Assembly: GCF_900102875.1 (NCBI RefSeq)
Contig: NZ_FNGH01000017.1
Coordinates: 1 to 64,000, forward strand
Length of the DNA stretch: 64,000 nucleotides
Reading direction: 5' to 3'
From: Franzmannia pantelleriensis
Lineage (GTDB): Bacteria; Pseudomonadota; Gammaproteobacteria; Pseudomonadales; Halomonadaceae
This document shows, piece by piece, positions 6,985 through 50,430 of the stretch. Numbering within the stretch: the first letter of the stretch is position 1; each line of letters begins with the position of its first letter. The notes beneath the pieces are model-generated. The model saw only the letters and a list, made by a program, of their open reading frames with translations, was not told the DNA's origin and searched no databases. A program made the position numbers and the translations under genes.

Positions 6985-7367
6985 ATCGTTCTCCCGGGCT
7001 CGGGGCCCTGTTCTCATCATCTGGTCGGTCTTAGATAATGTCGCTCACGTACGGTTCTAATCTCGCGGCTTGTCGGCGACAGGCCTGCGAGGAGGCGCTG
7101 TAAATACTTCCCTGTACGCTACCGATGCCCTACTGCGCTCTCGCGTCCTGCTTCGCTTGTAGGGCCGGTGCTGCCCATCCATGGCCAGCCCGTTCGGAGC
7201 AGTACTCCGAACCCATGGCATCGAACCTCCTCTTCGGCCTGTCCCCTGCGCCGCTATACGGTGGCGCTGGGGCTTGGCGCTTATTTCGTACCAGCAGTGT
7301 CCTGCGGGTCGCCCATAAAATCAATTCATGTTATTTATGCTTTGAATTCCTCCAAGGAATACATTGC
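6985..7367. promoter_or_regulatory. Divergent leuC / LysR control region
   Basis: This 383-bp gene-free stretch separates leuC (minus) from a LysR gene (plus). About half is occupied by dispersed repeat copy 2. The unique parts are 6985-7073, next to leuC, and the A+T-rich 7310-7367, next to the LysR gene. LysR regulators usually bind such divergent spacers, but I could not single out a convincing T-N11-A operator by eye. Confidence 0.5.
7074..7253 (+). repeat. Dispersed structured intergenic repeat, copy 2 (leuC-LysR spacer)
   Basis: It is collinear with copy 1: AGGCCTGCGAGGAGGCGCTG, then the TGCGCTCTCGC block, then CCATCCATGGCCAGCCCG, then the second hairpin, then GAACCTCCTCTTCGGCCT. The second inverted repeat (7192-7212) keeps an 8-bp stem GTTCGGAG/CTCCGAAC although the loop side differs from copy 1. 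The first inverted repeat has an altered left arm. Boundaries are approximate. Confidence 0.82.
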
Positions 7368-8273
7368 ATGGACACGCAAAGCCTCCAAGCCTTCCTCGCC
7401 GTGGCCGACCATGGCTCCTTCTCGCTGGCCGGCGAGCAGCTGCATCTGACCCAGCCGGCGGTGAGCAAGCGGATCGCCAGCCTCGAGGAGCAAGTCGGTG
7501 CACGGCTGTTCGACCGTATCAACCGCCGCGTGTCGCTGACCGAGGCGGGCCACCTGCTGCTGCCGCGGGCGCGACAGATCCTGGTAATGGTCGACGACAG
7601 CCGCCGTGCGCTTTCCAATCTCAGCGGTGACGTGGCCGGCAGCCTGACCATGGGCACCAGCCACCATATCGGGCTGCATCGCCTGCCCCCACTGCTCAAG
7701 CGCTATACCCGCGCTCACCCCGAGGTGCGCCTGGACATGCGCTTCCTCGACTCCGAGCAGGCCTACCAGGAGGTGCTCGACGGCGAGCTGGAAATCGCCG
7801 TGGTGACCCTCGCCCCGGTACCTGACCCGCAGTTGATGGTGGTGCCGGTGTGGGTCGACAGGCTGCGCTTCGTGTGCGCCCACGATCACCCATTGGCGCA
7901 GAATGCCACGCCGCCGCTGACGTCACTCTCTGCCCACGATGCGGTGCTGCCCGGACCGCAGACCTTCACCCGCGGCATCGTGATCGACACCTTCGCCCGC
8001 GACGGCTTGCAGGTGAAGGTCGCGCTCTCCACCAACTACCTCGAGACGCTGAAGATGATGGTCAGCATTGGCCTGGGCTGGAGCGTGCTACCGGAGTCGC
8101 TGATCGACGATAGCCTGCACGTGCTGGATATCGCGCATCGCCCCATCGAGCGGCCGCTGGGCTACCTGGTGCACAAGAGCCGCACCCTCTCCAACGCCGC
8201 ACGTTCGATGTTGGCGTTGCTGGATAACCAACGCACCGCATTCGGCCACGGCGACACGCCTAACACCTACTGA
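7368..8273 (+). CDS. LysR-family transcriptional regulator, divergent from leuCDB
   Basis: The 301-residue protein has the LysR winged helix-turn-helix at residues 1-60 (MDTQSLQAFLAVADHGSFSL, then LTQPAVSKRIASLEEQVGARLF). A linker helix and a periplasmic-binding-protein-like effector domain follow to the end. The start at 7368 follows AAGGA at a suitable distance and gives the canonical N-terminus; longer upstream frames would run through the repeat. It is divergent from leuC, the classical arrangement of a LysR activator and its target, so control of leucine synthesis is a reasonable inference. The inducer is unknown. An alternative target is the downstream Rieske operon, but that cluster has its own regulator. 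Confidence 0.9.
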   Translation: MDTQSLQAFLAVADHGSFSLAGEQLHLTQPAVSKRIASLEEQVGARLFDRINRRVSLTEAGHLLLPRARQILVMVDDSRRALSNLSGDVAGSLTMGTSHHIGLHRLPPLLKRYTRAHPEVRLDMRFLDSEQAYQEVLDGELEIAVVTLAPVPDPQLMVVPVWVDRLRFVCAHDHPLAQNATPPLTSLSAHDAVLPGPQTFTRGIVIDTFARDGLQVKVALSTNYLETLKMMVSIGLGWSVLPESLIDDSLHVLDIAHRPIERPLGYLVHKSRTLSNAARSMLALLDNQRTAFGHGDTPNTY

Positions 8274-8321
8274 TGTCGCTATTTATCAGAATTCCTTTGC
8301 GGGCAGGTACCCTGTAGTGGC

Positions 8322-8370
8322 GATAATTTGATTTATAACGACAAATATTCGTCTTAAATAATCAAATATC
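8322..8370. promoter_or_regulatory. A+T-rich nested inverted repeat upstream of the Rieske operon
   Basis: An imperfect outer inverted repeat (GATAATTTGATTTA against TAAATAATCAAATATC) surrounds a near-palindrome GACAAATATTCGTC at 8340-8353. It sits 90-135 bp upstream of the operon start, in the only strongly A+T-rich stretch nearby. It is a candidate operator or promoter element, perhaps for the GlxA/AraC regulator encoded at the operon's end. Assignment is inferred from position only. Confidence 0.4.
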
Positions 8371-8457
8371 TGATAACGCAGTGTCGTAAAACCTCATGCC
8401 TCTGCGACGTAGCGGCCTAGCCTGAGGGCTACCGTTACAGCATGAGGAGCCAGACCC

Positions 8458-9612
8458 ATGACGGACCGGATTCCGATCCAGCAGTGGGACGAACAGTCTG
8501 CCGAGACAGCCGTCACCCTGCCCTCCCGCTACTTCCACGACGCAACCATCTTTGCCGAGGAGCGCGAGCGCATCTTCATGAAGGCCTGGCACTTCGGCTG
8601 TCATGTCAACGAGCTCAGCGAAGCCGGCGCCTTCGTCGTCCGGGATATTTTCCGGCAGAGCGTGATTCTGATGCGCGACCGCCAGGGTGAGATCCACGCC
8701 TTCCACAACGTCTGCCAGCACCGCGGCAATCGCCTGCTGAACGAGACGCGCGGCGTCAACAAGGGCGTGATTCGCTGCGCCTACCACTCCTGGTGCTACG
8801 GCCAGGACGGCGCGCTACGCAGCGCCCCGCGCAGCGATCGCCTGGCCGGCTTCGACAAGCAGCAGCACGCCATCCCGGCCGTGCGCATGGAGGTCTTCGC
8901 CGACTGCGTGTTCTTCAACTTCGATCCCGATGCGGACTCGATGCAGACGCTGTTTCCCGGTGCCGACCAGGCCATGCGCGAGGCGATTCCCGATCTCGAC
9001 AAGATGCAGCTGGTCGAGGAGGACGATGTCATCGTCCCCGCCAACTGGAAGGTCATCATGGACAACTCCATCGAGGGCTATCACTTCCAGCTCTCGGGGC
9101 CTTGCCACGTCGATCTTGCGTCGCTGATCGATTTCGCCGGCTATCGGCTGCGTCAGTTCGACCACTGGTGGACCTACGGCGCCCCGCCCAACCCCGACGC
9201 CATCCAGGCCTATGGCAAGCCGCTATCACGCCCCCCCGAGCCGGGTGATGGGTTCTTCAACATTGGCATCTGGCCACACAACACCTTCTATCAGTTCCCG
9301 TTCACCCAGTGCCTGGGCACCTTCATGATGATCCCGCTGGACAGCGAACGCAGCCTGCTGCGTTTCGGCTACTACAGCGCCCAGCAGCCGATCTCCGAGG
9401 TCTCCCGAGCCAGCATCGCGTGGATGAACGATGAGCTCGGCCCGGAGGACATCGACCTCAACGTCACCGTGCAGCAGGGCTTGCACTCGCTGGGCTACAA
9501 CCAGGGGCGCTACATGATCGATGCCGAGCGCAGTAACGAGAGTGAGCACCTGGTGCATCACTTCCACCGTCTGGTATTCCGCGCCCTGCACCCCGAAGCG
9601 AGTCGCTTATGA
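8458..9612 (+). CDS. Rieske non-haem iron oxygenase alpha subunit, quaternary-amine type (CntA/GbcA-like)
   Basis: It probably hydroxylates an N-methyl or adjacent carbon of a quaternary ammonium compound, using electrons from the reductase encoded at 13045. The 384-residue protein has a Rieske [2Fe-2S] site (C86-x-H88 in VCQHRGN, C107-x2-H110 in CAYHSWCYG). The mononuclear iron region is DNSIEGYHFQLSGPCH (202-217), and a third carboxylate ligand is expected in the EDIDLN segment. The residue before GYH is Glu206, the bridging position that is Glu in carnitine- and betaine-type oxygenases and Asp in aromatic ones. The two histidines (209, 217) are eight residues apart, wider than the usual five. 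It is preceded by GAGGAG and overlaps the next gene by 4 bp. Carnitine, glycine betaine and proline betaine are all possible substrate types. Confidence 0.82.
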   Translation: MTDRIPIQQWDEQSAETAVTLPSRYFHDATIFAEERERIFMKAWHFGCHVNELSEAGAFVVRDIFRQSVILMRDRQGEIHAFHNVCQHRGNRLLNETRGVNKGVIRCAYHSWCYGQDGALRSAPRSDRLAGFDKQQHAIPAVRMEVFADCVFFNFDPDADSMQTLFPGADQAMREAIPDLDKMQLVEEDDVIVPANWKVIMDNSIEGYHFQLSGPCHVDLASLIDFAGYRLRQFDHWWTYGAPPNPDAIQAYGKPLSRPPEPGDGFFNIGIWPHNTFYQFPFTQCLGTFMMIPLDSERSLLRFGYYSAQQPISEVSRASIAWMNDELGPEDIDLNVTVQQGLHSLGYNQGRYMIDAERSNESEHLVHHFHRLVFRALHPEASRL

Positions 9613-10376
9613 GCGATGCCCCTGACGGCGAATTCCGCGGCCGTCGCGTGCTGGTCACCGGCGGCGCTCGCGGCATCGGCGCCGCCACCGCCGAGTTGCT
9701 GCTGATGCGTGGCGCACGGGTTGCCATCGGCGCACGCAGCGAGGCCTCGGTGGACGCGTTCAACGCCGAGCGTGACACCCCGGCCCTGGCGGCGGTGAGT
9801 GAACTGCGCGACCGCGCGAGCTGCCAGCGGGTGGTGGACACGGCCTGCGAGCGGCTCGGCGGCCTCGACTGCCTGATCAACTGTGCCGGGGTGTTCGAGG
9901 AGGTGCCCTTCGAAGCGGTCACGCAGCAACACTGGGACGATCACTACCAGATCAACGTTGCCGGTACCTTCTTTGCCATTCAGGCGGCGCTTCCGGCACT
10001 CGAGGCGAGTGGCGGCAACGTGGTCAACCTCGGCTCCGATGCCGGACTGATCGGCTATCCCCCCAGCAGTGTCTACTCCGGCGCCAAGGCGGCCGTGGTC
10101 AACCTGACCCGCGCCCTGGCACTGGAGCTGGCCGGGCGCATCCGCCTCAACTGCGTCTGCCCCGGCAACGTGGCCACCGAGATGATCGATCACGCCGCAC
10201 AGCGCAGCCCCGATCCCGCCGGCTATCTGGCCGACGCCCATGCCCGCGCCCCGATGGGGCGCATGGCACGGCCTGGCGAGGTCGCCGAGGCGATTCTCTA
10301 CCTCGCCTCGCCCCGCGCCAGCTTCACCCACGGCGCCATTCTCAGCGTCGATGGCGGGGGTGTGTGCGGCTTCTAG
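9609..10376 (+). CDS. SDR-family NAD(P)-dependent oxidoreductase
   Basis: This classical short-chain dehydrogenase/reductase of 255 residues probably oxidises a secondary alcohol or reduces a ketone formed in the pathway. The coenzyme motif TGGARGIG is at about residues 17-24, NCAG-type motif CLINCAG near the middle, and the catalytic Ser and Tyr-x3-Lys in NLGSDAG and YSGAK. The C-terminal PGNVATEM and SVDGG motifs are intact. Its ATG overlaps the stop of the Rieske gene (ATGA), so the two are translationally coupled. The substrate cannot be told from sequence. Carnitine is normally oxidised by a different, HAD-type 3-hydroxyacyl-CoA-dehydrogenase-like enzyme, so this is not evidence for that route. 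Confidence 0.85.
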   Translation: MSDAPDGEFRGRRVLVTGGARGIGAATAELLLMRGARVAIGARSEASVDAFNAERDTPALAAVSELRDRASCQRVVDTACERLGGLDCLINCAGVFEEVPFEAVTQQHWDDHYQINVAGTFFAIQAALPALEASGGNVVNLGSDAGLIGYPPSSVYSGAKAAVVNLTRALALELAGRIRLNCVCPGNVATEMIDHAAQRSPDPAGYLADAHARAPMGRMARPGEVAEAILYLASPRASFTHGAILSVDGGGVCGF

Positions 10377-10419
10377 CATCGCCCCGCAAGACAACTGATA
10401 ACACCAGGAGACCCTGACC

Positions 10420-11346
10420 ATGCGTAGCCCATCACTGCCTACCCTCTTGTCACGCTTGACAGCCAGCGCCCTGCTGCTGGCGCCGCTCGCCGCCCAGGCC
10501 GAGACGATCCGCTTCGCCACGCCGCAGTGGCCCGGCGCAACGGTCAAGTCCGAGGTCACCCGCCAACTGGTCGAAACCCTTGGCTATGACGCCACCCTCC
10601 AGGAAGCCAGCTCCTCGATCATCCTCGGCGGCATGGCCAGCGGAGACCTGGATATCAATATGGCGCTATGGCGGCCCTCACAGGGCGGCATGCTCGACCC
10701 GCGCCTGGAAGCCGGTGAGCTGGTCGAGCTGACCGAGAATATCGAAGGTGCGCGTTTCCAGCTGGCGGTACCCGGCTACGTCTGGGAGGCTGGCGTGCGC
10801 TCGATGGCCGATCTGGCCGAGCACGGCGAACGCTTCAGCCACACCTTCTACGGTATCGAACCCGGCAACGTCGGCAACGAACTGATGCAGGAGGCCGTCG
10901 ACAACGACACCTATGGGCTGAGCGACTGGCGGGTAGTGGCCTCCAGCGAGGCCGGCATGATGTCGCAGGTGGAGACCAGCATCGCCGACGACGAGTGGAT
11001 CGCCTTCCTCGGCTGGGAACCGCACTGGATGAACGTCGACTTCGATATTCGCTACCTGGAAGACCCGCAGAATCTGTGGGGCGATGCCAGCTCGGTGTCT
11101 ACCGTGGTCGCCGCCGATTTCGTCGAGCGCCACCCCAACCTGACCCGTCTGCTCGAGCAGATCGTGCTGCCTATCGACGTCCAGGATGCCTGGGTCTATG
11201 ACTACAGCCGCCGCGACATCCCCCTCGAGGAAGTGGCCAGCCAATGGCTCGCTGACAACCCTGACGTGGTGTTGGGCTGGCTCGAAAACGTGACCAGCGC
11301 CGACGGCCAGCAGGACGCCGCCGACCGTTATCGCAATACCTACTGA
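10420..11346 (+). CDS. Periplasmic glycine betaine/choline-type ABC substrate-binding protein (OpuAC/ChoX-like), orphan
   Basis: The 308-residue protein has a Sec signal peptide (cleavage after LAAQA, about residue 27) and an OpuAC-type binding domain. Tryptophans in TPQWPGA, MALWRPSQGG and LGWEPHWMN are placed as in proteins that hold quaternary ammonium groups in an aromatic cage. No permease or ATPase gene lies in this operon, so it must dock onto a transporter encoded elsewhere or serve as a sensor or scavenger. The complete OpuC/Yeh system at 47.8-51.3 kb has its own, different binding protein. It starts after AGGAGA and is co-directional with the catabolic genes, which points to a quaternary-amine substrate for the pathway. 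Confidence 0.85.
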   Translation: MRSPSLPTLLSRLTASALLLAPLAAQAETIRFATPQWPGATVKSEVTRQLVETLGYDATLQEASSSIILGGMASGDLDINMALWRPSQGGMLDPRLEAGELVELTENIEGARFQLAVPGYVWEAGVRSMADLAEHGERFSHTFYGIEPGNVGNELMQEAVDNDTYGLSDWRVVASSEAGMMSQVETSIADDEWIAFLGWEPHWMNVDFDIRYLEDPQNLWGDASSVSTVVAADFVERHPNLTRLLEQIVLPIDVQDAWVYDYSRRDIPLEEVASQWLADNPDVVLGWLENVTSADGQQDAADRYRNTY

Positions 11347-11372
11347 ATCCATCAGCGTAGCGAGACCCTGGC

Positions 11373-13037
11373 ATGACTGACCCCGCGTCATACGACTACA
11401 TCATCGTCGGCGCCGGCTCGGCCGGCTGCGTGCTGGCCGATCGGCTCAGCGCCGACGGCCGCTACCGGATACTGCTGATCGAGGCCGGTCCGCGTGACGC
11501 CTCCTGGACCATCGACATGCCCGCCGCCATGGGCGCGGCCATCGATGGCCCGCGCTTCAACTGGCACTATCATTCCGGCCCGGAGCCCTATCTGGACGAT
11601 CGCTATATCGCCACCCCGCGTGGCAAGACCCTGGGCGGCTCGTCGTCGATCAACGGCATGGTCTACATTCGCGGTCACGCCCGCGACTATGACCACTGGG
11701 CCGCCAGCGGCTGCCCCGGCTGGGGGTATGCCGAGGTACTGCCCTACTTCCGCCGCGCCGAATCCCACGAGCTGGGCGGCGATGACTACCACGGCGAGGA
11801 TGGACCGCTGCGAGTCAGCGCCGGTCGGCCTCATGATCCCCTGGCGTGCGCCTTCCTCAATGCCGGCGTAGAGGCCGGCTATCCCTATACCGAGGATCCC
11901 AACGGCTACTGCCAGGAAGGCATGGGGCGCGTCGATCGCACCACCTATCGCGGCCGGCGCTGGAGTACCGCCCGGGGCTATCTGGCCCGCGCCAGGTCGC
12001 GGAATAACCTCAGCGTGATCACCGGCGCCCTGGTCGAACGGGTGCTGCTCGACGCCGGTTGCGCCCGGGGCGTGAGCTATCGCGTCGCGGGCGACACGCG
12101 TCACGCCACCGCCACACGCGAGGTGATCCTCGCCGCCGGGGCCATCAACACCCCGCAACTGCTGATGCTCTCCGGGATCGGTCCCGAGGAGGCACTGGCG
12201 GCGCATGGCATCGACTGCCAACATCCTCTGCCCGGGGTCGGCCAGCGTCTCAGCGACCACCCGGACAGCGTGGTCGCCTATCGTGCCGAGCAGCCGGTCT
12301 CCATCGCCCCCTGGACGCATGCCCCGCGCAAGTGGTGGCTAGGCTTGCAGTGGTTCTGCCGCCATACCGGACTCGCGGCCAGCAATCAGTTCGATGCCGG
12401 CGCCTTCATCCGTTCCCGCGCCGGGGTCGAGCACCCCGACATCCAGCTCACCTTCATGTCGGCGGCGGTGCCGCCGGGCTCGGTGGCACCGCTGCGCGAG
12501 CACGCCTTCCAGGTGCATATCGACCTGATGCGCCCCACCAGCCTCGGCCACGTCAGGCTGCGCAGCGCCGATCCGGGCGAGGCGCCGGAGATCGTCTTCC
12601 ACTACCTGGCCAGCCAACGCGACCGAGCCGATATGCGCAGCGCCGTGCGCCTGGTGCGCGAGATCATCGCCCAGCCCGCTTTCGATGGCCTGCGCGGTGA
12701 AGAGATCTCCCCCGGCGCGCATATCGACAGCGACGCCGACCTCGACGCCTGGGCGCGACGCACCACCGAGACCGGCTACCACGCCGCTGGCACCTGCAAG
12801 ATGGGGCCCGCGGAGGATCCCGAGGCGGTGGTCGACCCCGAACTGCGTGTCCACGGCCTGGAGGGGCTGCGCGTGGTCGATGCCTCGATCATGCCGCGCA
12901 TCGTCAGCGGCAATACCAATGCCCCCACGGTGATGATCGCCGAAAAGGCCAGCGACCTGCTGCTCGGCAAGCCCCCCTTGCCGCCCAGCGAGGCGGCGAC
13001 CTGGATTCACCCCGAGTGGCAACATCGGCAACGCTGA
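11373..13037 (+). CDS. GMC-family FAD alcohol oxidoreductase (choline-dehydrogenase-like)
   Basis: It probably oxidises a primary alcohol to an aldehyde. The 554-residue protein has the FAD dinucleotide motif IIVGAGSAGCVLADRL at about 9-24, the GMC signature 1 around GKTLGGSSSINGMVYIRGHA, signature 2 around GAINTPQLLMLSGIGP, and the catalytic His and Asn regions HAAGTCKMG and VSGNTNAPTVMIAEKA near the C-terminus. The overall pattern is BetA-like. A paralogous betA for osmoprotection would normally sit with betB and betI; here it sits with a Rieske oxygenase, so the true substrate may be a choline analogue. Spacing to neighbours is 26 and 7 bp, consistent with one operon. Confidence 0.87.
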   Translation: MTDPASYDYIIVGAGSAGCVLADRLSADGRYRILLIEAGPRDASWTIDMPAAMGAAIDGPRFNWHYHSGPEPYLDDRYIATPRGKTLGGSSSINGMVYIRGHARDYDHWAASGCPGWGYAEVLPYFRRAESHELGGDDYHGEDGPLRVSAGRPHDPLACAFLNAGVEAGYPYTEDPNGYCQEGMGRVDRTTYRGRRWSTARGYLARARSRNNLSVITGALVERVLLDAGCARGVSYRVAGDTRHATATREVILAAGAINTPQLLMLSGIGPEEALAAHGIDCQHPLPGVGQRLSDHPDSVVAYRAEQPVSIAPWTHAPRKWWLGLQWFCRHTGLAASNQFDAGAFIRSRAGVEHPDIQLTFMSAAVPPGSVAPLREHAFQVHIDLMRPTSLGHVRLRSADPGEAPEIVFHYLASQRDRADMRSAVRLVREIIAQPAFDGLRGEEISPGAHIDSDADLDAWARRTTETGYHAAGTCKMGPAEDPEAVVDPELRVHGLEGLRVVDASIMPRIVSGNTNAPTVMIAEKASDLLLGKPPLPPSEAATWIHPEWQHRQR

Positions 13038-13044
13038 GGTTCTC

Positions 13045-13995
13045 ATGCACGACGCTCTATGCCTGGAAATCCGCCACCACCAAGCCCTCGGCGAACGCCT
13101 CTACCGGCTCGATCTGGCGGCAAGCGACGGGGCCACCCTGCCCCCGGCCGCGCCGGGGGCTCACCTGGCGCTCACGCTTCCCAACGGCATGACGCGCCAC
13201 TATTCACTGCTCGATGGTGCCGACGACGGGATCTACCGCATCGCCGTGCTCCACGAGCGCGATTCCCGCGGTGGCTCGGCGTGGCTCGCCGAGCACGCCA
13301 TGCCGGGCACTCGACTGACCGCCAGCGGCCCCCATGATCGCTTTCCCCTCGACGAGAGCGCCGCTCACCACTGCCTGGTCGGCGCCGGGATCGGCATCAC
13401 CCCGCTGGTCGCCATGGCGAGGCGCCTGCACGCGCTGGGCGCCAGCCGCGAGCTGCACTATCTGGTGCGCCATCGCCGGCAGGCGCTGTTCGCCGCAGCG
13501 CTGGCACCGCTGTTTCCGCCCGGCAAGCTGCACCTGCATATCTCCAGCGAGCATGGGCGCACTCGCCTCGACACTCTCGTGAACACGCCTCGTGCCAGCA
13601 CCCGCGTGTATGCCTGCGGCCCCGCCTCGCTGCTCGACGAGCTGGAGTGTCTCGCCGCCGACTGGCCGGCGGGCTGCCTGCGTCTGGAGCGCTTCCATAA
13701 CGACACCGTGCCCAGCGACGCCCCTCAAGACAGCTGCGAGGTGATCCTCGAGGCCAGCGGCAGACGCTTCACGCTAGCCCCGGGCCAATCCCTGATCGAC
13801 GCCCTGGAGGCGCACGGCGTGGCCCCGCCCCGCCTGTGCTGCGAAGGCGTTTGTGGTACCTGCGCCACACCGCTGCTGGATGGCGAGGTGGAGCACCTCG
13901 ACGCCGTGCAGTCCAGCGCCGAGAAGGCCCTCAACGACCTGATCTATCCCTGCGTGTCGCGCCCACGCGGCCCGCGTCTCGTTCTCGATCTCTAA
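13045..13995 (+). CDS. Rieske oxygenase reductase (FMN/FAD-NAD-[2Fe-2S], CntB/VanB-like)
   Basis: It passes electrons from NAD(P)H through flavin and a plant-type ferredoxin domain to the Rieske oxygenase. The 316-residue protein has the flavin motif RHYSLLD, the nucleotide motif VGAGIGITPLVAMA, the YACGP motif, and a C-terminal ferredoxin domain with the four cluster cysteines in CCEGVCGTC and YPCVSRP. This N-to-C order (reductase then ferredoxin) is that of phthalate/vanillate/carnitine oxygenase reductases. It lies three genes from its probable partner at 8458. A short 7-bp gap follows the GMC gene. Confidence 0.9.
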   Translation: MHDALCLEIRHHQALGERLYRLDLAASDGATLPPAAPGAHLALTLPNGMTRHYSLLDGADDGIYRIAVLHERDSRGGSAWLAEHAMPGTRLTASGPHDRFPLDESAAHHCLVGAGIGITPLVAMARRLHALGASRELHYLVRHRRQALFAAALAPLFPPGKLHLHISSEHGRTRLDTLVNTPRASTRVYACGPASLLDELECLAADWPAGCLRLERFHNDTVPSDAPQDSCEVILEASGRRFTLAPGQSLIDALEAHGVAPPRLCCEGVCGTCATPLLDGEVEHLDAVQSSAEKALNDLIYPCVSRPRGPRLVLDL

Positions 13996-14007
13996 GTGGA
14001 GTTCCAC

Positions 14008-15492
14008 ATGCCCCACAGCCACCATGACTGGCAACGTCTCGCCGCCGAGCTGACAGCCGACGGTCGTGCCTTCATCGACGGCCAGCGCCAGGCGGCCCAG
14101 GCCGGCGACTGGCTCGACTCCCTCAATCCCATGGGCGGGCCACCCGTCGCACGCATCGCCGCCGGCACCGCCGCGGATATCGATCTTGCCGTGGCCGCTG
14201 CACGTCGCAGTTTCAGCGCCGGCGACTGGTCGCAGGCCGCGCCGACCCGGCGTCGCCAAGTCTTGCAGGCGATCGCCACGAGGCTGCGCGAGCACGCCAC
14301 GACGCTGGCCCTGCTCGACTGCCTGGAAGTCGGCAAACGTATCGACGAGGCCCTCGACGATGTCGAGGAGTCCGCGCGACTGTTCGACTGGTATGCCGAG
14401 GTGCAGGACAAATGGTACGACGCCCTGGCCGCCTCGCCGCCCGGCGTGCAGGCCAGCATGCGCCATGAGCCACTGGGCGTGATCGGTGCAGTCGTGCCCT
14501 GGAACTATCCGCTGCACAACGCCTGCGTCAAGCTGGCGCCGGCGCTGGCCGCCGGCAATAGCGTGGTACTCAAACCCGCCGAGGAGTCATCGCTTTCGGC
14601 ACTGCGCCTCGCCGAGCTGTGCGAAACCGCGGGTCTTCCCCAGGGCGTGGTCAATGTGGTGCCCGGGCATGGCCATCAGGCCGGCGAAGCACTGGGCCGC
14701 CACGCCGACGTCGATGCCATCGGCTTCACCGGCTCCAGCGAAATCGGCAAGCGCTTCATGGTCTATGCCGGCGAGTCCAACATGAAGCCGGTGTGGCTGG
14801 AGTGCGGCGGCAAGAGTCCGCATCTAGTGTTCGCAGACGCAGGCGATCTTGAGGAGGTCGCCGATGCCGTGGCCGGCGCTATCTTCACCAATGCCGGCCA
14901 GGTCTGCTCGGCTCATTCACGGCTGCTGGTGCAGCGCGAGCTGGCCGAGCCATTGCTCGACGCGCTCTGCCGCCGCGCCAATGCGCTGACCCTGGGCGAT
15001 CCGCTCGATCCCGCCACTACCCTGGGGCCGCTGGTCAGCCAGGCCCAGTTCGACAAGGTCTGCGACTATTTGCGCCTGGGTCGCAGCGAAGCGCGGCTGG
15101 CCTGCGGAGGCGAGCCCCGCGAGGCAGACGGCGGACGGCTGTTCGTGGCGCCGACGATCTTTGCCGACGTCACCCCCGACCGACGCCTGTTCCGCGAGGA
15201 GATCTTCGGCCCGGTCTTGACGGTAACCCCCTTCGACGACGAGGAGCAGGCCGTGGCCCTGGCCAATGACAGCGAATATGGCCTGGCGGCCTCGCTGTGG
15301 ACACGCGACCTGGGGCGTGCTCACCGTCTGTGCGACCGCCTGCAGGCGGGCACCGTCACGGTCAATGGCGTGGATGCCGTGAGCCTGCAGACCACCTTCG
15401 GCGGCGTTAAGCAGTCGGGCATCGGTCGCGACTACGCCCTCGCCGGTATGCAAAAATACATGGCCGTCAAGACGCGCTGGATTCAGTATTGA
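14008..15492 (+). CDS. NAD(P)-dependent aldehyde dehydrogenase (betaine/gamma-aminobutyraldehyde type)
   Basis: The 494-residue enzyme should convert the aldehyde made by the neighbouring GMC enzyme to the acid. It has the ALDH cofactor region VVPWNYPLHNACVKLAPALA, the NAD motif GFTGSSEIGKRF, the general-base glutamate in LECGGKSPH and the catalytic cysteine in GQVCSAHSR. The C-terminal FGGVKQSGIGRDYA oligomerisation/substrate region is intact. The start at 14008 follows GGAG at 6 bp; a GTG at 13996 would add four residues. The pairing with a GMC oxidase parallels BetA-BetB in choline oxidation, but the pathway here includes extra steps. Malic-semialdehyde oxidation after carnitine cleavage is an alternative role. 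Confidence 0.9.
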   Translation: MPHSHHDWQRLAAELTADGRAFIDGQRQAAQAGDWLDSLNPMGGPPVARIAAGTAADIDLAVAAARRSFSAGDWSQAAPTRRRQVLQAIATRLREHATTLALLDCLEVGKRIDEALDDVEESARLFDWYAEVQDKWYDALAASPPGVQASMRHEPLGVIGAVVPWNYPLHNACVKLAPALAAGNSVVLKPAEESSLSALRLAELCETAGLPQGVVNVVPGHGHQAGEALGRHADVDAIGFTGSSEIGKRFMVYAGESNMKPVWLECGGKSPHLVFADAGDLEEVADAVAGAIFTNAGQVCSAHSRLLVQRELAEPLLDALCRRANALTLGDPLDPATTLGPLVSQAQFDKVCDYLRLGRSEARLACGGEPREADGGRLFVAPTIFADVTPDRRLFREEIFGPVLTVTPFDDEEQAVALANDSEYGLAASLWTRDLGRAHRLCDRLQAGTVTVNGVDAVSLQTTFGGVKQSGIGRDYALAGMQKYMAVKTRWIQY

Positions 15493-15512
15493 GTCCCCGA
15501 CAGGAGATTTCC

Positions 15513-16250
15513 ATGCAACAGCACGACGTGTCGCGCCCCATCCTCGATGCCAGTCCGCGCCAGCAGCTGGCCGCCGCCTTTCGCTGGATGGCCCGTCTCG
15601 ACATGCACGAGGCCACCGCCAACCACTGCAGCCTGGCGCTGGACGAGCGACGCTTCCTGATCAACCCGCTGGGTCATCACTTCTCGGAGCTGCGCGCCAG
15701 CGACCTGCTCGAGGTGGATCGCCACGGGCAAGCGCCGGCGGACATCGACCCCACCGCCTGGGCGATTCACGGCGCCATGCATCGCCAGGGCGAACACATT
15801 GGCTGCATCCTGCATAGCCACGCACCCTATGCCACCGCGCTGTCCTGCCTGGAATCGCCCCATCTACCCCCGGTGGAGCAGAACAGCATGCGCTTCTTCG
15901 AGCGTCTCTACGTCGATCAAGGCTTCGATGGCATGGGCCTCGCCGACGAGGCCGAACGCCTCGGCGGGCTGGCCAACCGTGCCTCGGTACTGCTGCTCGG
16001 CAACCACGGCGTGGTGACCACCGGCGCCGATGTCGCCGAGGCGTTCGATCGCCTCTACTACTTCGAGCGCGCCTGCCGCACCTATCTGATCGCCCGCGGC
16101 AGCGGCCTGCCGCTCAAGCCGGTCAGCGACACGGTGGCGCGCAAGACGGCGGCACAGTGGGACGACTACATGGCCGAGGGGGCAGCCCAGCAGCACTTTG
16201 CCGCGCTGCTGCGCATCCTCGACCGTGATGCCCCCGACTATCGTCACTGA
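15513..16250 (+). CDS. Class II aldolase/adducin-domain protein
   Basis: This 245-residue member of the zinc-dependent class II aldolase family (fuculose-phosphate aldolase/adducin fold) probably performs a retro-aldol cleavage or related step. Metal-binding histidines are in CILHSHAPYATAL (about residues 90-102) and in LLGNHGVVTTG. It starts after AGGAG and lies 20 bp after the aldehyde dehydrogenase. A carbon-carbon cleaving enzyme is not part of the known choline-to-sarcosine or carnitine-to-malate routes. Its presence therefore suggests a longer-chain or polyhydroxylated substrate. Non-aldolase roles, such as dehydratase-like chemistry or regulation, are known for the fold and cannot be excluded. 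Confidence 0.8.
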   Translation: MQQHDVSRPILDASPRQQLAAAFRWMARLDMHEATANHCSLALDERRFLINPLGHHFSELRASDLLEVDRHGQAPADIDPTAWAIHGAMHRQGEHIGCILHSHAPYATALSCLESPHLPPVEQNSMRFFERLYVDQGFDGMGLADEAERLGGLANRASVLLLGNHGVVTTGADVAEAFDRLYYFERACRTYLIARGSGLPLKPVSDTVARKTAAQWDDYMAEGAAQQHFAALLRILDRDAPDYRH

Positions 16251-17278
16251 TGCGTACGCCTGGCCTGCCTGATAGCGCTCCCTCGACCCCACCCTACCGG
16301 CTCAAGCTGATGCTGATGCCGGCGTTCTCCTTCGCCGGCCTGGGGACCATTCTGGATAGCCTGTTCATCGTCAACTGGCTCGCCCAGGAGCCGCGCTTCG
16401 AGTGGCAGTTGCTGGGGCTGGAGGAGAGCGTCATGGCCTCCAATGGCACGCCGCTGGCCGTCGAGCCTGAGTGGCCGGCTCCGCATACGCTGGATGAGGT
16501 GTGGGTGCTGGCCAGTTTCGCCACCAAGAGCTACCGCGACGACACGCGCCTGGCCATGTGGCTGCGCCACTGTGCCGCCGCGGGGACCAACCTCGGTGGC
16601 ATCGAGGTAGGCAGCGACATGCTCGCCGCCGCCGGGGTCATGCAGGGCCATCGTGTCGCCATGCACTGGGACAACCGCGAGGGCTTTGCCGAGCGTTACC
16701 CACAGCTCGAAACCAGCAGCGAGCTCTACTGCCTCGACCGCGACCGGCTGAGCTGCGCCGGGGGCACCGCCATCGTCGACCTGATGTTCGCCTGGTTGGC
16801 GCGCCATGTGGAGCCCGCCCTGCTCGAGGAGCTGCGCAATCATCTCCTCGAACGCCGTCAACGCGACGGCGCTCGCCAGCAGCTTGCCGCCGACCCGCTC
16901 CACCATGCCGAGACGTCAGCCCAGATTCGACGGGTACTGCGTCATATGCGCCGCCATATCGAAGCGCCGCTCAGCACTGCCGAGTTGGCCAGCCATGCCG
17001 GCCTCTCGACGCGTCAACTGGAGCGACGCTTCAAGCAGGAGCTGGGGGTGACGCCGATGCGCTATTACCTGTGGCTGCGCATCAACCGTGCCCACCGGCT
17101 GCTACAGCAGACAGACCTCAGCGTGGCGTCCGTCGCCAGTGCCGCCGGTTTCGGATCCCTGGAGCATTTTTCACGCAGCTATCGCCGCTTCTTCGGCTGT
17201 GCGCCCAGCAGCGATCGCCTGCAGTCGCCCGAGGCGCCGGTACTGCCACTGCGCTACCTGCCCTACCGTCGGCGCTGA
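16250..17278 (+). CDS. GlxA-family AraC-type transcriptional regulator (GbdR/CdhR-like architecture)
   Basis: The 342-residue protein has an N-terminal DJ-1/PfpI-like amidotransferase-fold sensor domain (about residues 18-200) and a C-terminal double helix-turn-helix AraC domain (about 235-325, including LSTRQLERRFKQELGVTP and AAGFGSLEHFSRSYRRFFG). Regulators of this architecture, such as GbdR and CdhR in Pseudomonas, control betaine and carnitine catabolism. Its ATG shares one base with the aldolase stop codon (TGATG), so it is the last gene of the operon. It is probably the operon's own activator, responding to a pathway compound, and the inverted repeat at 8322-8370 is a candidate target. 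Confidence 0.88.
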   Translation: MRTPGLPDSAPSTPPYRLKLMLMPAFSFAGLGTILDSLFIVNWLAQEPRFEWQLLGLEESVMASNGTPLAVEPEWPAPHTLDEVWVLASFATKSYRDDTRLAMWLRHCAAAGTNLGGIEVGSDMLAAAGVMQGHRVAMHWDNREGFAERYPQLETSSELYCLDRDRLSCAGGTAIVDLMFAWLARHVEPALLEELRNHLLERRQRDGARQQLAADPLHHAETSAQIRRVLRHMRRHIEAPLSTAELASHAGLSTRQLERRFKQELGVTPMRYYLWLRINRAHRLLQQTDLSVASVASAAGFGSLEHFSRSYRRFFGCAPSSDRLQSPEAPVLPLRYLPYRRR

Positions 17279-17391
17279 CGTTCGCGGCCGCCCACCCGCG
17301 GACGGCATGCTTAGGCCCGCTTGAGCCTCGTCGACAATTTACCTAGGATGCTAACTTTCCCCTTACGCGAGGTCGCTCGCTCAGGATACTC

Positions 17392-18768
17392 ATGTCCGCT
17401 CAGGATGCGCCGCCCGCCGCCCCCACTCGCCCCGACTCGCCCTCGCTGCGTCAGGTGATCGCCGGCGTCGCTATTCTCGCCGGGCTGATCTGGCAGATCC
17501 TGCTATTTACCGGCGCGGCCGTGACGCCGCTGCCAGTGGGCTATCTGCTGTGGTTCTCGGTCGTACTGCTGTGGCGCGACATCCCTACCCGCTCACGGCG
17601 CCAGGCCGGCGTGCTGATCGCGCTGGGCGCCGGCATGCTGCTGGCGGCCCGACTGGGCTACGCCGCCGAGGTGGCCTGGCCGTGGATTCTGGACGGCAAC
17701 ACCTACGTGGTGGCGATGCTGGTAGGCGTCAGCTTCATCAGCCTGATCGGCAGTCAAAGCCCCAGTCGCAGCGGCACCCATCTGACCGGCTGGCGCGGCG
17801 TGCTCAGCACCTGGTTCAGCGTTCACCTGCTGGGGTCGATCCTCAATCTCTCCACGGTATTCATGGTGGGGGACCGGCTGCGCGGGCTTAATCCACCGCC
17901 CCCTCAGCCGGCCAGCGCACCGCTTAGCCCGCCACAAATCCTGGCCCTCAATCGGGGGCTCTCCAGCGCGGCCTTCTGGTCGCCGTTCTTCGCCTCGATG
18001 GGGGTGGTGATGAGCCTGGCGCCGCAGATGAATTTCCTATGGATTCTGGCCTTCGGCCTGCCGCTGGGGGTGCTGTCGGGGCTATTCACCAGCGTGGAGC
18101 TAAATCGCCGATTCGATCTGTCCAATACCCCCGGTTTTGCCATGTCGCCGGCCAACCTGCTGATGCCGGTCGCCATGGCAAGCCTGGTGATGCTGTTTCA
18201 CTACGGCCTTACACCGAGGCTGTCGATCGTCAGCATCATCACCTTTCTGCTGCCGGCCGCAGCGCTGGCAACCAACCTCCCCCAGGGGCTGCGCTGGACC
18301 CGGCGACGCATCGTCGAGCACACCCGCAGGCGGCTGCCGAGCATGCGCGGCGAGATCTCGCTGTTCTTGGCGGCGGGGCTCTTTACTCAAGGATTGTCTA
18401 CGTTGATTGCCGCCGTAACCGGCGGCGAGTGGGTGCTGTTCGAGCACTTCGGTGCCGCCCAGGCCATGTTGAGCTATGCGGTGATCGTGGTCAGCGCCAT
18501 CGCCGGCCTGCATCCGATCATCGGCGTCTCGACACTGGCCTCGATGCTCGACCTCGAGGGTAGCCGCTACACGCTACTGGCCTTCGTGGCACTGGCGTCA
18601 TGGGGAGTGGGCACGGCGGTGGGGCCGTTATCGGGGATCAATCTCTCGCTGCAGGGGCGCTACGGCGTCAGCGGCTACCGCACCATGCGCCTCAACGCCC
18701 CGTATGCCGCGATCATGTCGCTGGCGGTGCTGGCCGGCATACTGCTGCTCGACCAACTGATCGCCTGA
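17392..18768 (+). CDS. Uncharacterised polytopic inner-membrane protein
   Basis: I do not recognise the family. The 458-residue protein begins with a short Pro-rich cytoplasmic tail, then shows about eleven hydrophobic helices (from about residue 22 to the C-terminus), with a basic loop RWTRRRIVEHTRRRL in the middle. The size, helix number and the paired halves separated by that loop resemble ion-transporter-superfamily permeases, but no diagnostic motif is visible. It follows the GlxA regulator by 113 bp. It could be the uptake or export component of the Rieske pathway, or an independent gene. It converges with ybeL, with 8 bp between the stop codons. Confidence 0.7.
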   Translation: MSAQDAPPAAPTRPDSPSLRQVIAGVAILAGLIWQILLFTGAAVTPLPVGYLLWFSVVLLWRDIPTRSRRQAGVLIALGAGMLLAARLGYAAEVAWPWILDGNTYVVAMLVGVSFISLIGSQSPSRSGTHLTGWRGVLSTWFSVHLLGSILNLSTVFMVGDRLRGLNPPPPQPASAPLSPPQILALNRGLSSAAFWSPFFASMGVVMSLAPQMNFLWILAFGLPLGVLSGLFTSVELNRRFDLSNTPGFAMSPANLLMPVAMASLVMLFHYGLTPRLSIVSIITFLLPAAALATNLPQGLRWTRRRIVEHTRRRLPSMRGEISLFLAAGLFTQGLSTLIAAVTGGEWVLFEHFGAAQAMLSYAVIVVSAIAGLHPIIGVSTLASMLDLEGSRYTLLAFVALASWGVGTAVGPLSGINLSLQGRYGVSGYRTMRLNAPYAAIMSLAVLAGILLLDQLIA

Positions 18769-18776
18769 TCGCCTGA

Positions 18777-19292
18777 TCAGTCGGAAGCACGGGCGAAATA
18801 GCGATGCCCGCACTGGTGGCAGGGATCGATACGGGTCACCGTCTCGAGGGTGACCTGGGCATCGCAGTGCACGCAGGCCATGCGCCCGGGAGCGGCGATC
18901 TCGCCCTCGCAGTAGTCGGCCTGAGCCGCCTCGAGGTCGTCCTCGAGCCGTTCACGGTCGACGATGCTGCGATCGGCCACCGACAGCAACGCCTCGCTGA
19001 CTTTGCGCGACAGCACCGTGAGGTCGATGCCCAGCCAACTTGCCACGCTATTACCACCGGCGGCGAGATAGCGGCGCATGTCCTTGAGGTCGCGCTCGAC
19101 CCAGGCGCGCAGCAGCGCCAGCTCATCCTTGGTGAACTCCTCGAACTCGGCTTCGAACTCCACCGCCTCATCGAGATCCTTCTGCAGCGCGTCCCATGAC
19201 AGCTCGTCGGCGCCCTCCTGAAGGCGCGCCAGCATGCGTTCGTACCCTTCGCGCAGGCGATGCTCCTGCGTTGTCTCCTTGCGATCGCTCAT
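18777..19292 (-). CDS. ybeL: Zinc-ribbon protein of the YbeL/DUF1451 family
   Basis: The 171-residue protein is mostly acidic alpha-helix (about 1-130) followed by a C-terminal zinc ribbon with MACVHCDAQVTLE and IDPCHQCGHRYF, giving two CxxC pairs. Function is not established. The call rests on this architecture and on position beside leuS, where E. coli also has ybeL. The start at 19292 follows AAGGAG; an ATG at 19313 upstream is less likely because it would place that site inside the gene. It is divergent from leuS with a 210-bp promoter region between them. Confidence 0.85.
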   Translation of the reverse strand: MSDRKETTQEHRLREGYERMLARLQEGADELSWDALQKDLDEAVEFEAEFEEFTKDELALLRAWVERDLKDMRRYLAAGGNSVASWLGIDLTVLSRKVSEALLSVADRSIVDRERLEDDLEAAQADYCEGEIAAPGRMACVHCDAQVTLETVTRIDPCHQCGHRYFARASD

Positions 19293-19442
19293 GGTGCACT
19301 CCTTGTTCATCACTAACCGGTCTCACGGATGCTCCGCAGCGCGTGGCCCTACCTGATGGCGCGCTGCTGGGGTATGCTTGTGCCCCATTGCCGTCATCTT
19401 CCTTTGGCTTCAATGCGCTACGACCTTTCTAGCATATTGTAG

Positions 19443-22085
<2,643 letters not shown>

Positions 22086-47588: not shown

Positions 47589-47797
47589 CAGCATTATTCA
47601 TGATTGCAATTTGAAATCGTTATTCATTTTCAAAACAAATAGATACCCGCCTTTGCTAGACTCATGTCATCCCGACGCGATCTGCCCTGCCTCGAGTTAG
47701 ACGACTCATCAGTGAGCCGCTACATGCTGCGTGTGTGATGACATCAGGGACATCCATCGCATCGACCTGCGTCGCCCCCCACAGGAGGAACCGCCGC

Positions 47798-48463
47798 GTG
47801 GAGCTTATTCAATACGCGTTCGACAATATCGACCTGCTGGCCAGCCGGACCCTCGAACATATCGCCCTGGTCGGCGTAGCCGTAGGCCTGGCGACTCTCA
47901 CCGGCGTCCCCATCGGCATCGCCATCACCCGCAACGAACGCCTGGCGCGCAGCGTGCTCTACGCCGCCTCGATCATCATCACCATCCCGTCCATCGCCCT
48001 GTTCGGCATCATGATCCCGATTCTTTCGCTGATTGGCCACGGCATCGGCTATGTGCCAGCAGTGATCGCGGTACTGCTCTATTCGCAGCTACCGATCATC
48101 CGTAACACCTATACCGCCATCAACAACGTCAATCCGGCGCTTCGCGAGGCCGCCCGCGGCATCGGCATGAGCCCCAACCAGCGCCTGCGCATGGTCGAAA
48201 TCCCACTGGCAGTGCCGGTGATCATGGCCGGCGTACGCACCGCCGTGGTGCTCAACATCGGGGTGATGGCGATTGCCGCCTATATCGGCGCCGGCGGCCT
48301 GGGTACCTTTATCAGCCGAGGCATCTCGCAGTCCGACCCGCGCCAGCTGATCGTAGGTGCAGTGGCCGTGAGCCTGCTGGCGATCATCGTCGACTACTCT
48401 CTGCTGGCGCTGCAGAAGCGCCTGACGCCCAAGGGGATGGAGCGCGCGGCGTCCACCGCCTGA
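47798..48463 (+). CDS. Osmoprotectant ABC transporter permease 1 (OpuC/YehW type)
   Basis: The 221-residue permease has six helices and the ABC-coupling EAA-type loop ALREAARGIGMSPNQRLRMVEIPLA. It belongs to the glycine betaine/carnitine/choline family. The start is GTG at 47798, nine bases after AGGAGG; an upstream ATG at 47735 would put that strong ribosome binding site inside the gene. It leads the four-gene order permease-ATPase-permease-binding protein found in E. coli yehWXYZ-like systems. Confidence 0.92.
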   Translation: MELIQYAFDNIDLLASRTLEHIALVGVAVGLATLTGVPIGIAITRNERLARSVLYAASIIITIPSIALFGIMIPILSLIGHGIGYVPAVIAVLLYSQLPIIRNTYTAINNVNPALREAARGIGMSPNQRLRMVEIPLAVPVIMAGVRTAVVLNIGVMAIAAYIGAGGLGTFISRGISQSDPRQLIVGAVAVSLLAIIVDYSLLALQKRLTPKGMERAASTA

Positions 48464-48499
48464 GCCCCTGCGCCACTGCCACCAGACAAGGATAACCGC

Positions 48500-49651
<1,152 letters not shown>

Positions 49652-49655
49652 GCCG

Positions 49656-50387
49656 ATGCCCATCCAGAGCATGAAAGGAGCCCTGCGCGCGCTGCTGCTG
49701 GTAGCGGTCTTCGCCGCCGGGGTGTGGAGCCACTCGAGCGGTTTGATCGATGACTTTCTGTGGCATCTGCCCGACGTCCAGTACCTTGCCGTTGAACACC
49801 TGTGGCTGACCGCAATCTCCGGCAGCCTGGCAATCGGCGTGGCGATTCCACTCGGCATTCTGCTGTCGCGGCCCTCGATGGCACGCTGGGCGGAAAGCCT
49901 GATGCAGGTGCTCAACGTCGGCACCACCATCCCCACGCTGGCGGTACTGGCCCTGTCGATGAGCTTTCTGGGCATCGGCACCGTGCCGGCCATATTCGGG
50001 CTGTTCGTTGCCACCCTGCTGCCTATCGCCCGCAACACCTACGCCGGTCTCAAGGGCGTATCGCCGGCGCTGATGGAGGCCGCCGCCGGCATCGGCATGT
50101 CACCGACACAGCGGCTGTTTCGGGTCGAACTGCCCAACGCCCTGTATGTGATCTTCGCCGGGATTCGCACGGCGCTTGCCATCAATATCGGCACCGTACC
50201 GCTGGCATTTTTGATCGGTGCCGGTGGCCTCGGCGAGCTGATCTTCACCGGTATCGATCTCTACGACCCGGTGATGATGCTGTCCGGAGCCATTCCCACG
50301 GCGCTGCTGGCGATCCTCGTCGACGCACTGATCGCCACCATCGCTTTCTTTATCGTGCCGCGGGGCGTCAACCCTGCACGCCAATGA
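49656..50387 (+). CDS. Osmoprotectant ABC transporter permease 2 (OpuC/YehY type)
   Basis: The 243-residue permease has an extra N-terminal helix compared with permease 1, then six core helices with the coupling loop ALMEAAAGIGMSPTQRLFRVELPNA. The near identity of the loop to permease 1 suggests they form a heterodimer around the shared ATPase. The start at 49656 follows GGAG in the end of the ATPase gene. Confidence 0.93.
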   Translation: MPIQSMKGALRALLLVAVFAAGVWSHSSGLIDDFLWHLPDVQYLAVEHLWLTAISGSLAIGVAIPLGILLSRPSMARWAESLMQVLNVGTTIPTLAVLALSMSFLGIGTVPAIFGLFVATLLPIARNTYAGLKGVSPALMEAAAGIGMSPTQRLFRVELPNALYVIFAGIRTALAINIGTVPLAFLIGAGGLGELIFTGIDLYDPVMMLSGAIPTALLAILVDALIATIAFFIVPRGVNPARQ

Positions 50388-50430
50388 CAACATCGCTAAC
50401 GACAACATCCCTGATGCAAGGAGAACGACC

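Follow-up and report, generated by a model that had tools for sequence, protein, structure and literature searches.

What compound is broken down by a bacterium that encodes, side by side, a Rieske oxygenase, a relative of choline dehydrogenase and a protein with the class II aldolase fold? The question is raised by positions 8458-17278 of a 64,000-nucleotide stretch of Franzmannia pantelleriensis DNA (contig NZ_FNGH01000017.1, positions 1 to 64,000; hereafter the window), whose host genome comprises 4.40 Mb in 40 contigs. The eight genes found there form a discrete, conserved family of loci. On balance, we think that they probably form an inducible operon for the breakdown of an alcohol with a quaternary-ammonium group (trimethylammonium-type) that is not choline. 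The term quaternary ammonium is suggested by the substrate-binding protein (SBP), an acidic residue of the GMC oxidoreductase and the relatives of the Rieske protein. In the sea, in soil and in the gut, quaternary amines are important currencies of carbon and nitrogen, and a single substrate assignment would annotate every species with this family, of which dozens have been sequenced, Halomonas elongata and many Pseudomonas among them.

Gene order, distribution and operator

All eight open reading frames (ORFs) lie on the + strand and fill the interval, with 8718 of its 8821 bases coding. The intergenic gaps are, in order, -4 (an ATGA overlap), 43, 26, 7, 12, 20 and -1 (a TGATG overlap). These figures were computed with the ATG starts we chose for the aldehyde dehydrogenase (ALDH) and aldolase-like genes, which the mechanical ORF list opens at GTG 13996 and TTG 15489, respectively. 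With gaps from -4 to 43, the co-directional unit proposed in the original prediction, made from the sequence letters, is borne out, and the gene family names given there match the profile assignments. The features are:

8274..8396, +, operator array of four half-site elements upstream of the operon
8458-9612, +, Rieske oxygenase alpha subunit, 384 aa (Rieske and Ring_hydroxyl_A domains)
9609-10376, +, short-chain dehydrogenase (SDR), accessory (adh_short_C2)
10420-11346, +, orphan ChoX-like periplasmic binding protein, the SBP (OpuAC)
11373-13037, +, GMC oxidoreductase, choline dehydrogenase relative (GMC family models)
13045-13995, +, phthalate-dioxygenase-reductase-type protein (Fer2 reductase)
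14008-15492, +, ALDH, nearest PuuC/KauB (Aldedh)
15513-16250, +, class II aldolase/adducin fold protein (Aldolase_II)
16250-17278, +, GlxA/GbdR-like AraC-family regulator (AraC helix-turn-helix)

At a threshold of E 1e-20, a Rieske match of some kind was present in 128 of the 151 genomes taken from the family. Near-full-length matches at 75% identity or more were confined to 12, the window's own genome counted, and the remaining listed matches were partial and at most 35% identical. All eight genes recur in the same order in 11 of these 12 carriers, indicating that the gene set is beyond chance. In the twelfth (G021, locus L045) the SDR gene is gone and the SBP gene has lost its first half, whilst the other six genes are intact. 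The Aidingimonas halophila contig L093, probably the same one, likewise has no SDR and only the C-terminal half of the SBP; the loss just behind the Rieske gene is a natural deletion. In G038 (L047) the eight genes occur without the leu and LysR genes that flank most other copies. The closest named relatives at the locus are Halomonas salipaludis (Rieske 98% identical) and Halomonas sp. ML-15 (94%).

The conserved order that was to be sought across Halomonadaceae was thus found, but this frame proved too narrow, as the set reaches Pseudomonas, Burkholderiales and alphaproteobacteria. Among the matches listed for 369 genomes of the class no further relative exceeded 37% identity, whilst three of 398 genomes of the phylum had one, at 57, 64 and 66%. 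A scan of named contigs, queried with an 11-sequence alignment, confirmed 109 Rieske relatives, all in Proteobacteria; these counts overlap with the family-genome counts, several contigs being the same. We examined the loci of the best 80 of the 109, down to 54% identity: 15 from Halomonadaceae, one each from Bacterioplanes and Tamilnaduibacter, 41 from Pseudomonas, nine from Burkholderiales and 13 others, chiefly alphaproteobacteria and metagenome-assembled genomes. The Halomonas elongata copy, L099, comes from strain 153B.

Neighbours were counted within 9 kb of the Rieske gene at identity thresholds that we set, in loci of related species that are hence not independent events. Across all 80 loci, GMC and regulator genes were each found in 74, the aldolase-like gene in 70, SBP in 45, ALDH in 41, reductase in 23 and SDR in 16. 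Restricting the count to the 63 loci with complete flanks gave GMC and regulator in all 63, the aldolase-like gene in 61, SBP in 39, ALDH in 37, reductase in 20 and SDR in 16. Gene order varies: Tamilnaduibacter has Rieske-GMC-ALDH-aldolase-regulator, and many Pseudomonas have Rieske-GMC-regulator with the aldolase-like gene on the opposite strand and ALDH and SBP nearby. Six core genes form one block on the plasmid pF045_1 (L206, NZ_CP115240.1 70375-77718) of a Pseudomonas aeruginosa from cystic fibrosis, with recombinase genes several kb off on either side and a Tn3/mer element close by, so the pathway can travel. A megablast of the whole operon against plasmids gave 25 records, none with 80% query cover. 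Accidental neighbourhood of genes that do not work together is scarcely credible and was rejected: SDR, SBP, ALDH and reductase do vary between lineages, but the Rieske, GMC and regulator genes stay together in every complete locus, the plasmid holds a block, and the same operator precedes separate units in many loci.

This operator consists of half sites of the form TGTCGYwwwnnATCA. The window has four, at 8274-8288 (+), 8329-8343 (-), 8350-8364 (+, weak) and 8382-8396 (+), scoring 23.2, 24.4, 9.6 and 19.9 on a matrix to which they themselves contributed. They hold 25 of the 39 invariant columns in an upstream alignment of 12 halomonad sequences. For other loci, a matrix built on 29 halomonad sites was run over at most 275 bases before the Rieske gene, with 12 as the lowest accepted score (set by us). 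The operator was found there in 38 of 41 Pseudomonas loci (controls 10/375), both Bacterioplanes/Tamilnaduibacter loci (controls 1/20), seven of nine Burkholderiales loci (controls 2/79) and four of the 13 others (controls 0/118). In Pseudomonas, 23 of 39 loci also have it before the aldolase-like gene (controls 1/231), as does, by script, one of six in Burkholderiales. With one operator ahead of the Rieske gene and, in many loci, ahead of the separately placed aldolase-like gene too, these genes behave as a single regulon. Genome-wide, there are 24 exact occurrences of the pattern and seven of its reverse. For a wider regulon, no second close operator pair was seen among the listed genome matches, and no sigma-70 promoter was found by consensus directly before the operon.

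The regulator has GbdR (NF052371) as its best model, at 206 bits against a cut-off of 480. Pfam finds only the AraC helix-turn-helix in it, the GlxA label coming from the GbdR model and the NCBI name of the plasmid homologue.

Oxygenase, oxidoreductases, binding protein and aldolase-like protein

Is the Rieske protein a known enzyme under another name? Its cluster ligands (C86-H88 and C107-H110) and the residues Glu206, His209, His217 and Asp331 are invariant in both family alignments, Glu206 being the bridging residue and Asp331 occupying the third-ligand position. Among solved proteins CntA is its closest relative, in sequence (195 bits; 252 bits with a profile) as well as in fold. The predicted structure (pLDDT 92.7) has CntA as its best match in the Protein Data Bank (PDB), with a TM of 0.84-0.88 on the query. 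In the alignment CntA Glu205, His208, His213 and Asp323 correspond to window Glu206, His209, His217 and Asp331, the CntA literature number being the chain number minus 20. There are thus three extra residues between the two ligand histidines compared with CntA. The iron-site motif of the window protein is NSIEGYHFQLSGPCH (H-x7-H), and NSIEGYHFxLSGxxH is present in 80 of 80 relatives, whereas all 45 comparison Rieske proteins have H-x4-H spacing. The Cys-x-x-Cys pair by the iron site is also absent, with Gly207 and Phe210 in its place and EGYHF in 80/80; the Cys206/Cys209 pair is given as a trait of some group V members in the part of PMC10952381 available. Its absence is not special by itself, as several comparison proteins also lack it.

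In a tree of 63 rows the 19 family rows form a clade of their own (support 100/100); the four rows of the YeaW clade (100/100) and the ten of the GbcA clade (100/99) group elsewhere. Two of the 45 comparators were left out, the program warned of long branches elsewhere, and the branching order around the family was not resolved. The GbcA model (NF058607) gives the window protein 124 bits against a cut-off of 670, whilst the genome's own GbcA, on contig 13, scores 840. Membership of CntA or GbcA was accordingly rejected on model score, iron-site motif and tree placement. A position inside either clade, with neighbours not conserved, had been named beforehand as the outcome that would speak against the proposal; the protein lies outside both and its neighbours are conserved. 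Judged from alignment and tree, it is a distinct family whose iron site, with a spacing of its own, is unlike those of the known groups.

The GMC protein is 48% identical to Escherichia coli BetA and scores 751 bits with PRK02106 (cut-off 605), but reaches only 663 of the 732.1 bits required by the BetA equivalog TIGR01810. It had been predicted to be BetA-like, and it is, yet it is not the genome's choline dehydrogenase: the true BetA scores 911 bits and lies with betI and betB on another contig. Nineteen positions are invariant in the 74 GMC proteins of the family and different in two mutually agreeing true BetA proteins. The family has Asp298 (74/74) at the position of the ammonium-binding Glu312 of choline oxidase; E. 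coli BetA and the genome's own BetA have Glu there. Ser92, Thr360, Asp384 and Thr515 also replace residues common to the two BetA proteins. The His and Asn positions that are presumably catalytic are kept in the family. The GMC fold and these two residues are shared with BetA and with TaoA of the TRIS pathway, as far as TaoA is described in the accessible part of PMC10848231.

The ALDH is nearest to PuuC and KauB, of the aminoaldehyde type, and reaches 463 of the 668.6 bits needed for the BADH model. PuuC and KauB act on longer aminoaldehydes than betaine aldehyde. The reductase has the phthalate dioxygenase reductases 2pia and 7ylr among its best PDB matches and is probably the partner of the Rieske protein. 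The SDR is accessory and non-core. It had been read as a pointer to the substrate; presence in only 16 of 63 complete loci and deletion in Aidingimonas do not support this.

The SBP scores 261 bits with the ChoX model TIGR03414 (cut-off 379). As predicted for an orphan ChoX-like protein, it keeps a ChoX-type aromatic cage of Trp37, Trp84, Phe113 and Trp199, matching Trp43, Trp90, Tyr119 and Trp205, which form the cage of ChoX. Gly39 replaces ChoX Asp45. All 14 complete halomonad SBPs share the Trp, Trp, Phe, Trp cage with Asp45 changed to Gly and Tyr119 to Phe, whilst all 30 non-halomonad SBPs have the complete Trp, Asp, Trp, Tyr, Trp. These residues suggest that the Pseudomonas ligand may resemble choline more than the halomonad one does, or that the two SBPs may have been recruited separately. 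Chen et al., in 2010, reportedly described substrate-binding proteins that share the Cbc transporter in Pseudomonas. BetX and CaiX are such proteins, and they resemble the window's ChoX-like SBP, which also comes without its own permease; the Halomonadaceae proteins differ in the Gly and Phe at Asp45 and Tyr119. Genes for a ProV/ProW-type ATPase and permease lie with ChoX-type SBPs near betIBA elsewhere in the genome, so a transporter that could be shared is available. The window itself has a second quaternary-ammonium-type ABC transporter at 47735-51312; its ProV-like ATPase exceeds the subfamily cut-off, its OsmF-like SBP falls short of its own, and permease-like ORFs are also present.

Is the aldolase-like protein an aldolase? 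Its residue numbers here count from TTG at 15489. His109, His111 and His173 match the metal ligands of FucA, but Ala90 and Gln131 stand where FucA has its catalytic Glu73 and Tyr113, a Glu and Tyr that E. coli YgbL retains. Ala90, His94 and Glu154 are each kept in at least 93% of 70 relatives. His94 precedes the first metal His by 15 residues and Glu154 the third by 19, the same spacing as for His104 and Glu164 in pyruvic oxime dioxygenase (POD), whose Phe103 would be Ile93 here (POD numbering from the available part of PMC11841055). The protein scores 325 bits (cut-off 260) with PRK07490, a 'hypothetical protein'. The best structural alignments of its model (pLDDT 89.6) are to POD, TqaM, NovR and 3ocr, a protein of unknown function (Z 26.3-28.6), as well as to 4xxf, which is named an aldolase (Z 27.9). 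The pyridine dicarboxylate decarboxylase 2z7b follows at Z 24.3, and E. coli FucA and YgbL at 22.5 or less. The nearest folds of known function are thus the Fe(II) enzymes POD, NovR and TqaM (Z 26.3-28.4), which share the His triad and the absence of FucA Glu73 and Tyr113, but are only 20-27% identical. From the modelled fold and these residues the protein is probably a non-heme iron oxygenase; it may instead be a decarboxylase of the same fold, as 2z7b is. Aldol cleavage of a carbon chain, which the original prediction had favoured, is not supported. That interpretation holds in its main lines, but finds no support in its reading of the SDR or in the aldol step. The available part of PMC11841055 suggests that unassigned 'class II aldolases' may be dioxygenases, and the aldolase-like partner would put this suggestion to the test.

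Substrate and competing explanations

Which substrate would such a set of proteins act on? A cationic substrate is argued by the GMC Asp and the SBP cage, and a primary alcohol by the pairing of GMC and ALDH. The cage and the Rieske relatives make a trimethylammonium group probable. The compound should not be choline, given the GMC residue changes and the complete choline and betaine genes elsewhere: betIBA, a ChoX-type SBP, permease, ATPase and GbcA already cover both compounds. We propose that the orphan SBP would pick up the compound and hand it to a shared choline/betaine-type ABC transporter. By their families, GMC and ALDH would turn its CH2OH end into a carboxylate. Going by the nearest relatives of the Rieske protein, it and the reductase would oxidise the carbon adjoining the charged nitrogen and so set free either an amine or a methyl group. 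The aldolase-like protein would take a further step, Fe(II)/O2 cleavage or decarboxylation being likelier than aldol cleavage from its fold and residues, with the SDR as an accessory oxidoreductase. The GlxA-type regulator would switch the unit by binding the half-site array.

Candidate substrates are, in order of preference, homoserine betaine, 2,3-dihydroxypropyl-trimethylammonium and homocholine. The latter two are substrates of other bacteria, and homoserine betaine is the head group of DGTS lipids. Homoserine betaine fits because it occurs naturally and has a primary alcohol on a four-carbon chain. According to the accessible part of PMC13403184 it was first characterised in Trichodesmium and has been measured in reef and seagrass water, its microbial uptake not being directly tested in that study. 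In the open-licence literature searched, no genes were assigned to its bacterial breakdown, and titles and abstract beginnings held no description of the eight-gene set. In those parts of the literature that were surveyed, the only substrates given for Rieske enzymes of this kind are choline, glycine betaine, carnitine/butyrobetaine, stachydrine and benzalkonium. A third kind of quaternary-amine Rieske protein, joined to an Fe(II) oxygenase on the aldolase fold in an undescribed pathway for a widespread natural compound, for example homoserine betaine, is a tentative further step that we hold to be rather doubtful.

Several observations weigh against a quaternary-ammonium alcohol degraded by the unit as a whole. 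None of the 34 complete Pseudomonas loci has the reductase, and of all complete loci more than a third lack ALDH and more than a third lack SBP. By script, the operator precedes SBP genes in only two of 14 Pseudomonas and none of four Burkholderiales loci. The script's start rule skipped the SBP genes of L144, L147 and L149, which by position have strong sites before them, and L154 has a site in the ALDH-regulator gap. Many Pseudomonas SBP genes follow ALDH on the same strand and so need no site of their own; the link between SBP and operator is uneven. The SBP of Pseudomonas L106 passes the choline cut-off (473 against 379) and would suit choline itself. The dimethylamine monooxygenase PF11927 occurs in four of 151 family genomes and in none of the 12 carriers, so that this route for released methylamine is not there. 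The CntA Tyr203 position is Ser204, leaving the protein without the trimethylammonium-binding aromatic of group Va, and this region reads NSIE in 80 of 80 relatives. In the part of PMC7948474 available, Tyr203 makes a pi-cation contact in CntA and an aromatic residue there is a criterion for group Va (CntA, choline monooxygenase, OxyBAC). A further such observation comes from L079 (193-8616), in the same phylum, where a microcompartment locus that we take to be of the amino-alcohol type is convergent with a Rieske-GMC pair. This locus has a BMC domain, an APH kinase, a class III aminotransferase, an aldehyde dehydrogenase and an SDR.

The missing aromatic and the L079 neighbours also favour a substrate that is a cation but not a quaternary amine, such as a sulfonium compound or an amino alcohol. 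The latter has a precedent in TaoA, a choline-dehydrogenase-like protein acting on TRIS (available part of PMC10848231). We nevertheless regard this as unlikely. The ChoX-type Trp cage is complete in every non-halomonad SBP, the Rieske protein is nearest to CntA, and the microcompartment context occurs in one locus only.

A second, diverged choline/glycine-betaine route, with GMC oxidising choline, ALDH making betaine and the Rieske protein demethylating it, is in our judgement quite unlikely. The score of the GMC protein with the broad choline dehydrogenase model speaks for it, as do a regulator nearest GbdR, NCBI labels of choline dehydrogenase and choline SBP on plasmid copies, and L106, whose ALDH is nearest BADH (590 bits, still below 668.6) beside its choline-type SBP. 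The GMC protein nonetheless falls short of the betA equivalog whilst the genome's own BetA far exceeds it, and the 19 family-specific positions set it apart from true BetA. The Rieske protein, too, lies far below the GbcA cut-off and outside its clade. GbcA/GbcB and the stachydrine demethylase Stc2 (group Vb) resemble the window system in having a Rieske protein for quaternary amines and a GbdR-like regulator. Unlike at GbcA and Stc2, no recurrent one-carbon gene cluster was recognised among the neighbours, where there was one FolD gene, at L160 (Dongia mobilis). There, at 13507-15561, an FAD/Fer2 reductase and the FolD gene lie directly behind the Rieske, GMC and aldolase-like genes. This hints at one-carbon release, in one locus only.

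A carnitine or butyrobetaine route through a variant of CntA/CntB (YeaW/YeaX, group Va) is very unlikely, even though CntA is the best relative in sequence and fold, shares the bridging Glu and third-ligand Asp and a quaternary ammonium context, and CntA-type loci carry a reductase related to that of the window. CntA has the Tyr203 aromatic, the Cys pair and H-x4-H spacing, all lacking here, and belongs to another, equally well supported clade. Its neighbours also differ: the CntA-type loci L080, L081 and L085 consist of Rieske-ALDH-reductase with isopropylmalate-dehydrogenase-like and LysR genes, and no GMC or aldolase-like gene was found at them. Carnitine, moreover, offers GMC no primary alcohol.

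Flanking genes and single loci

No RNA family scored above threshold within 7000-19500. The LysR gene at 7392-8273 was considered as the operon regulator and rejected, as it accompanies the leu genes and is missing at L047, L102 and L103. At L159 a second, divergent Rieske gene adjoins the family member (features at 805-2244 and 8641-9768), and one ORF there resembles, by eye, an MttB-type methyltransferase. Downstream of the window operon, positions 17392-18768 encode a membrane-like protein for which neither Pfam nor NCBIfam gave a match at the threshold applied; it sits behind the operon in eight of the 15 halomonad contig loci.

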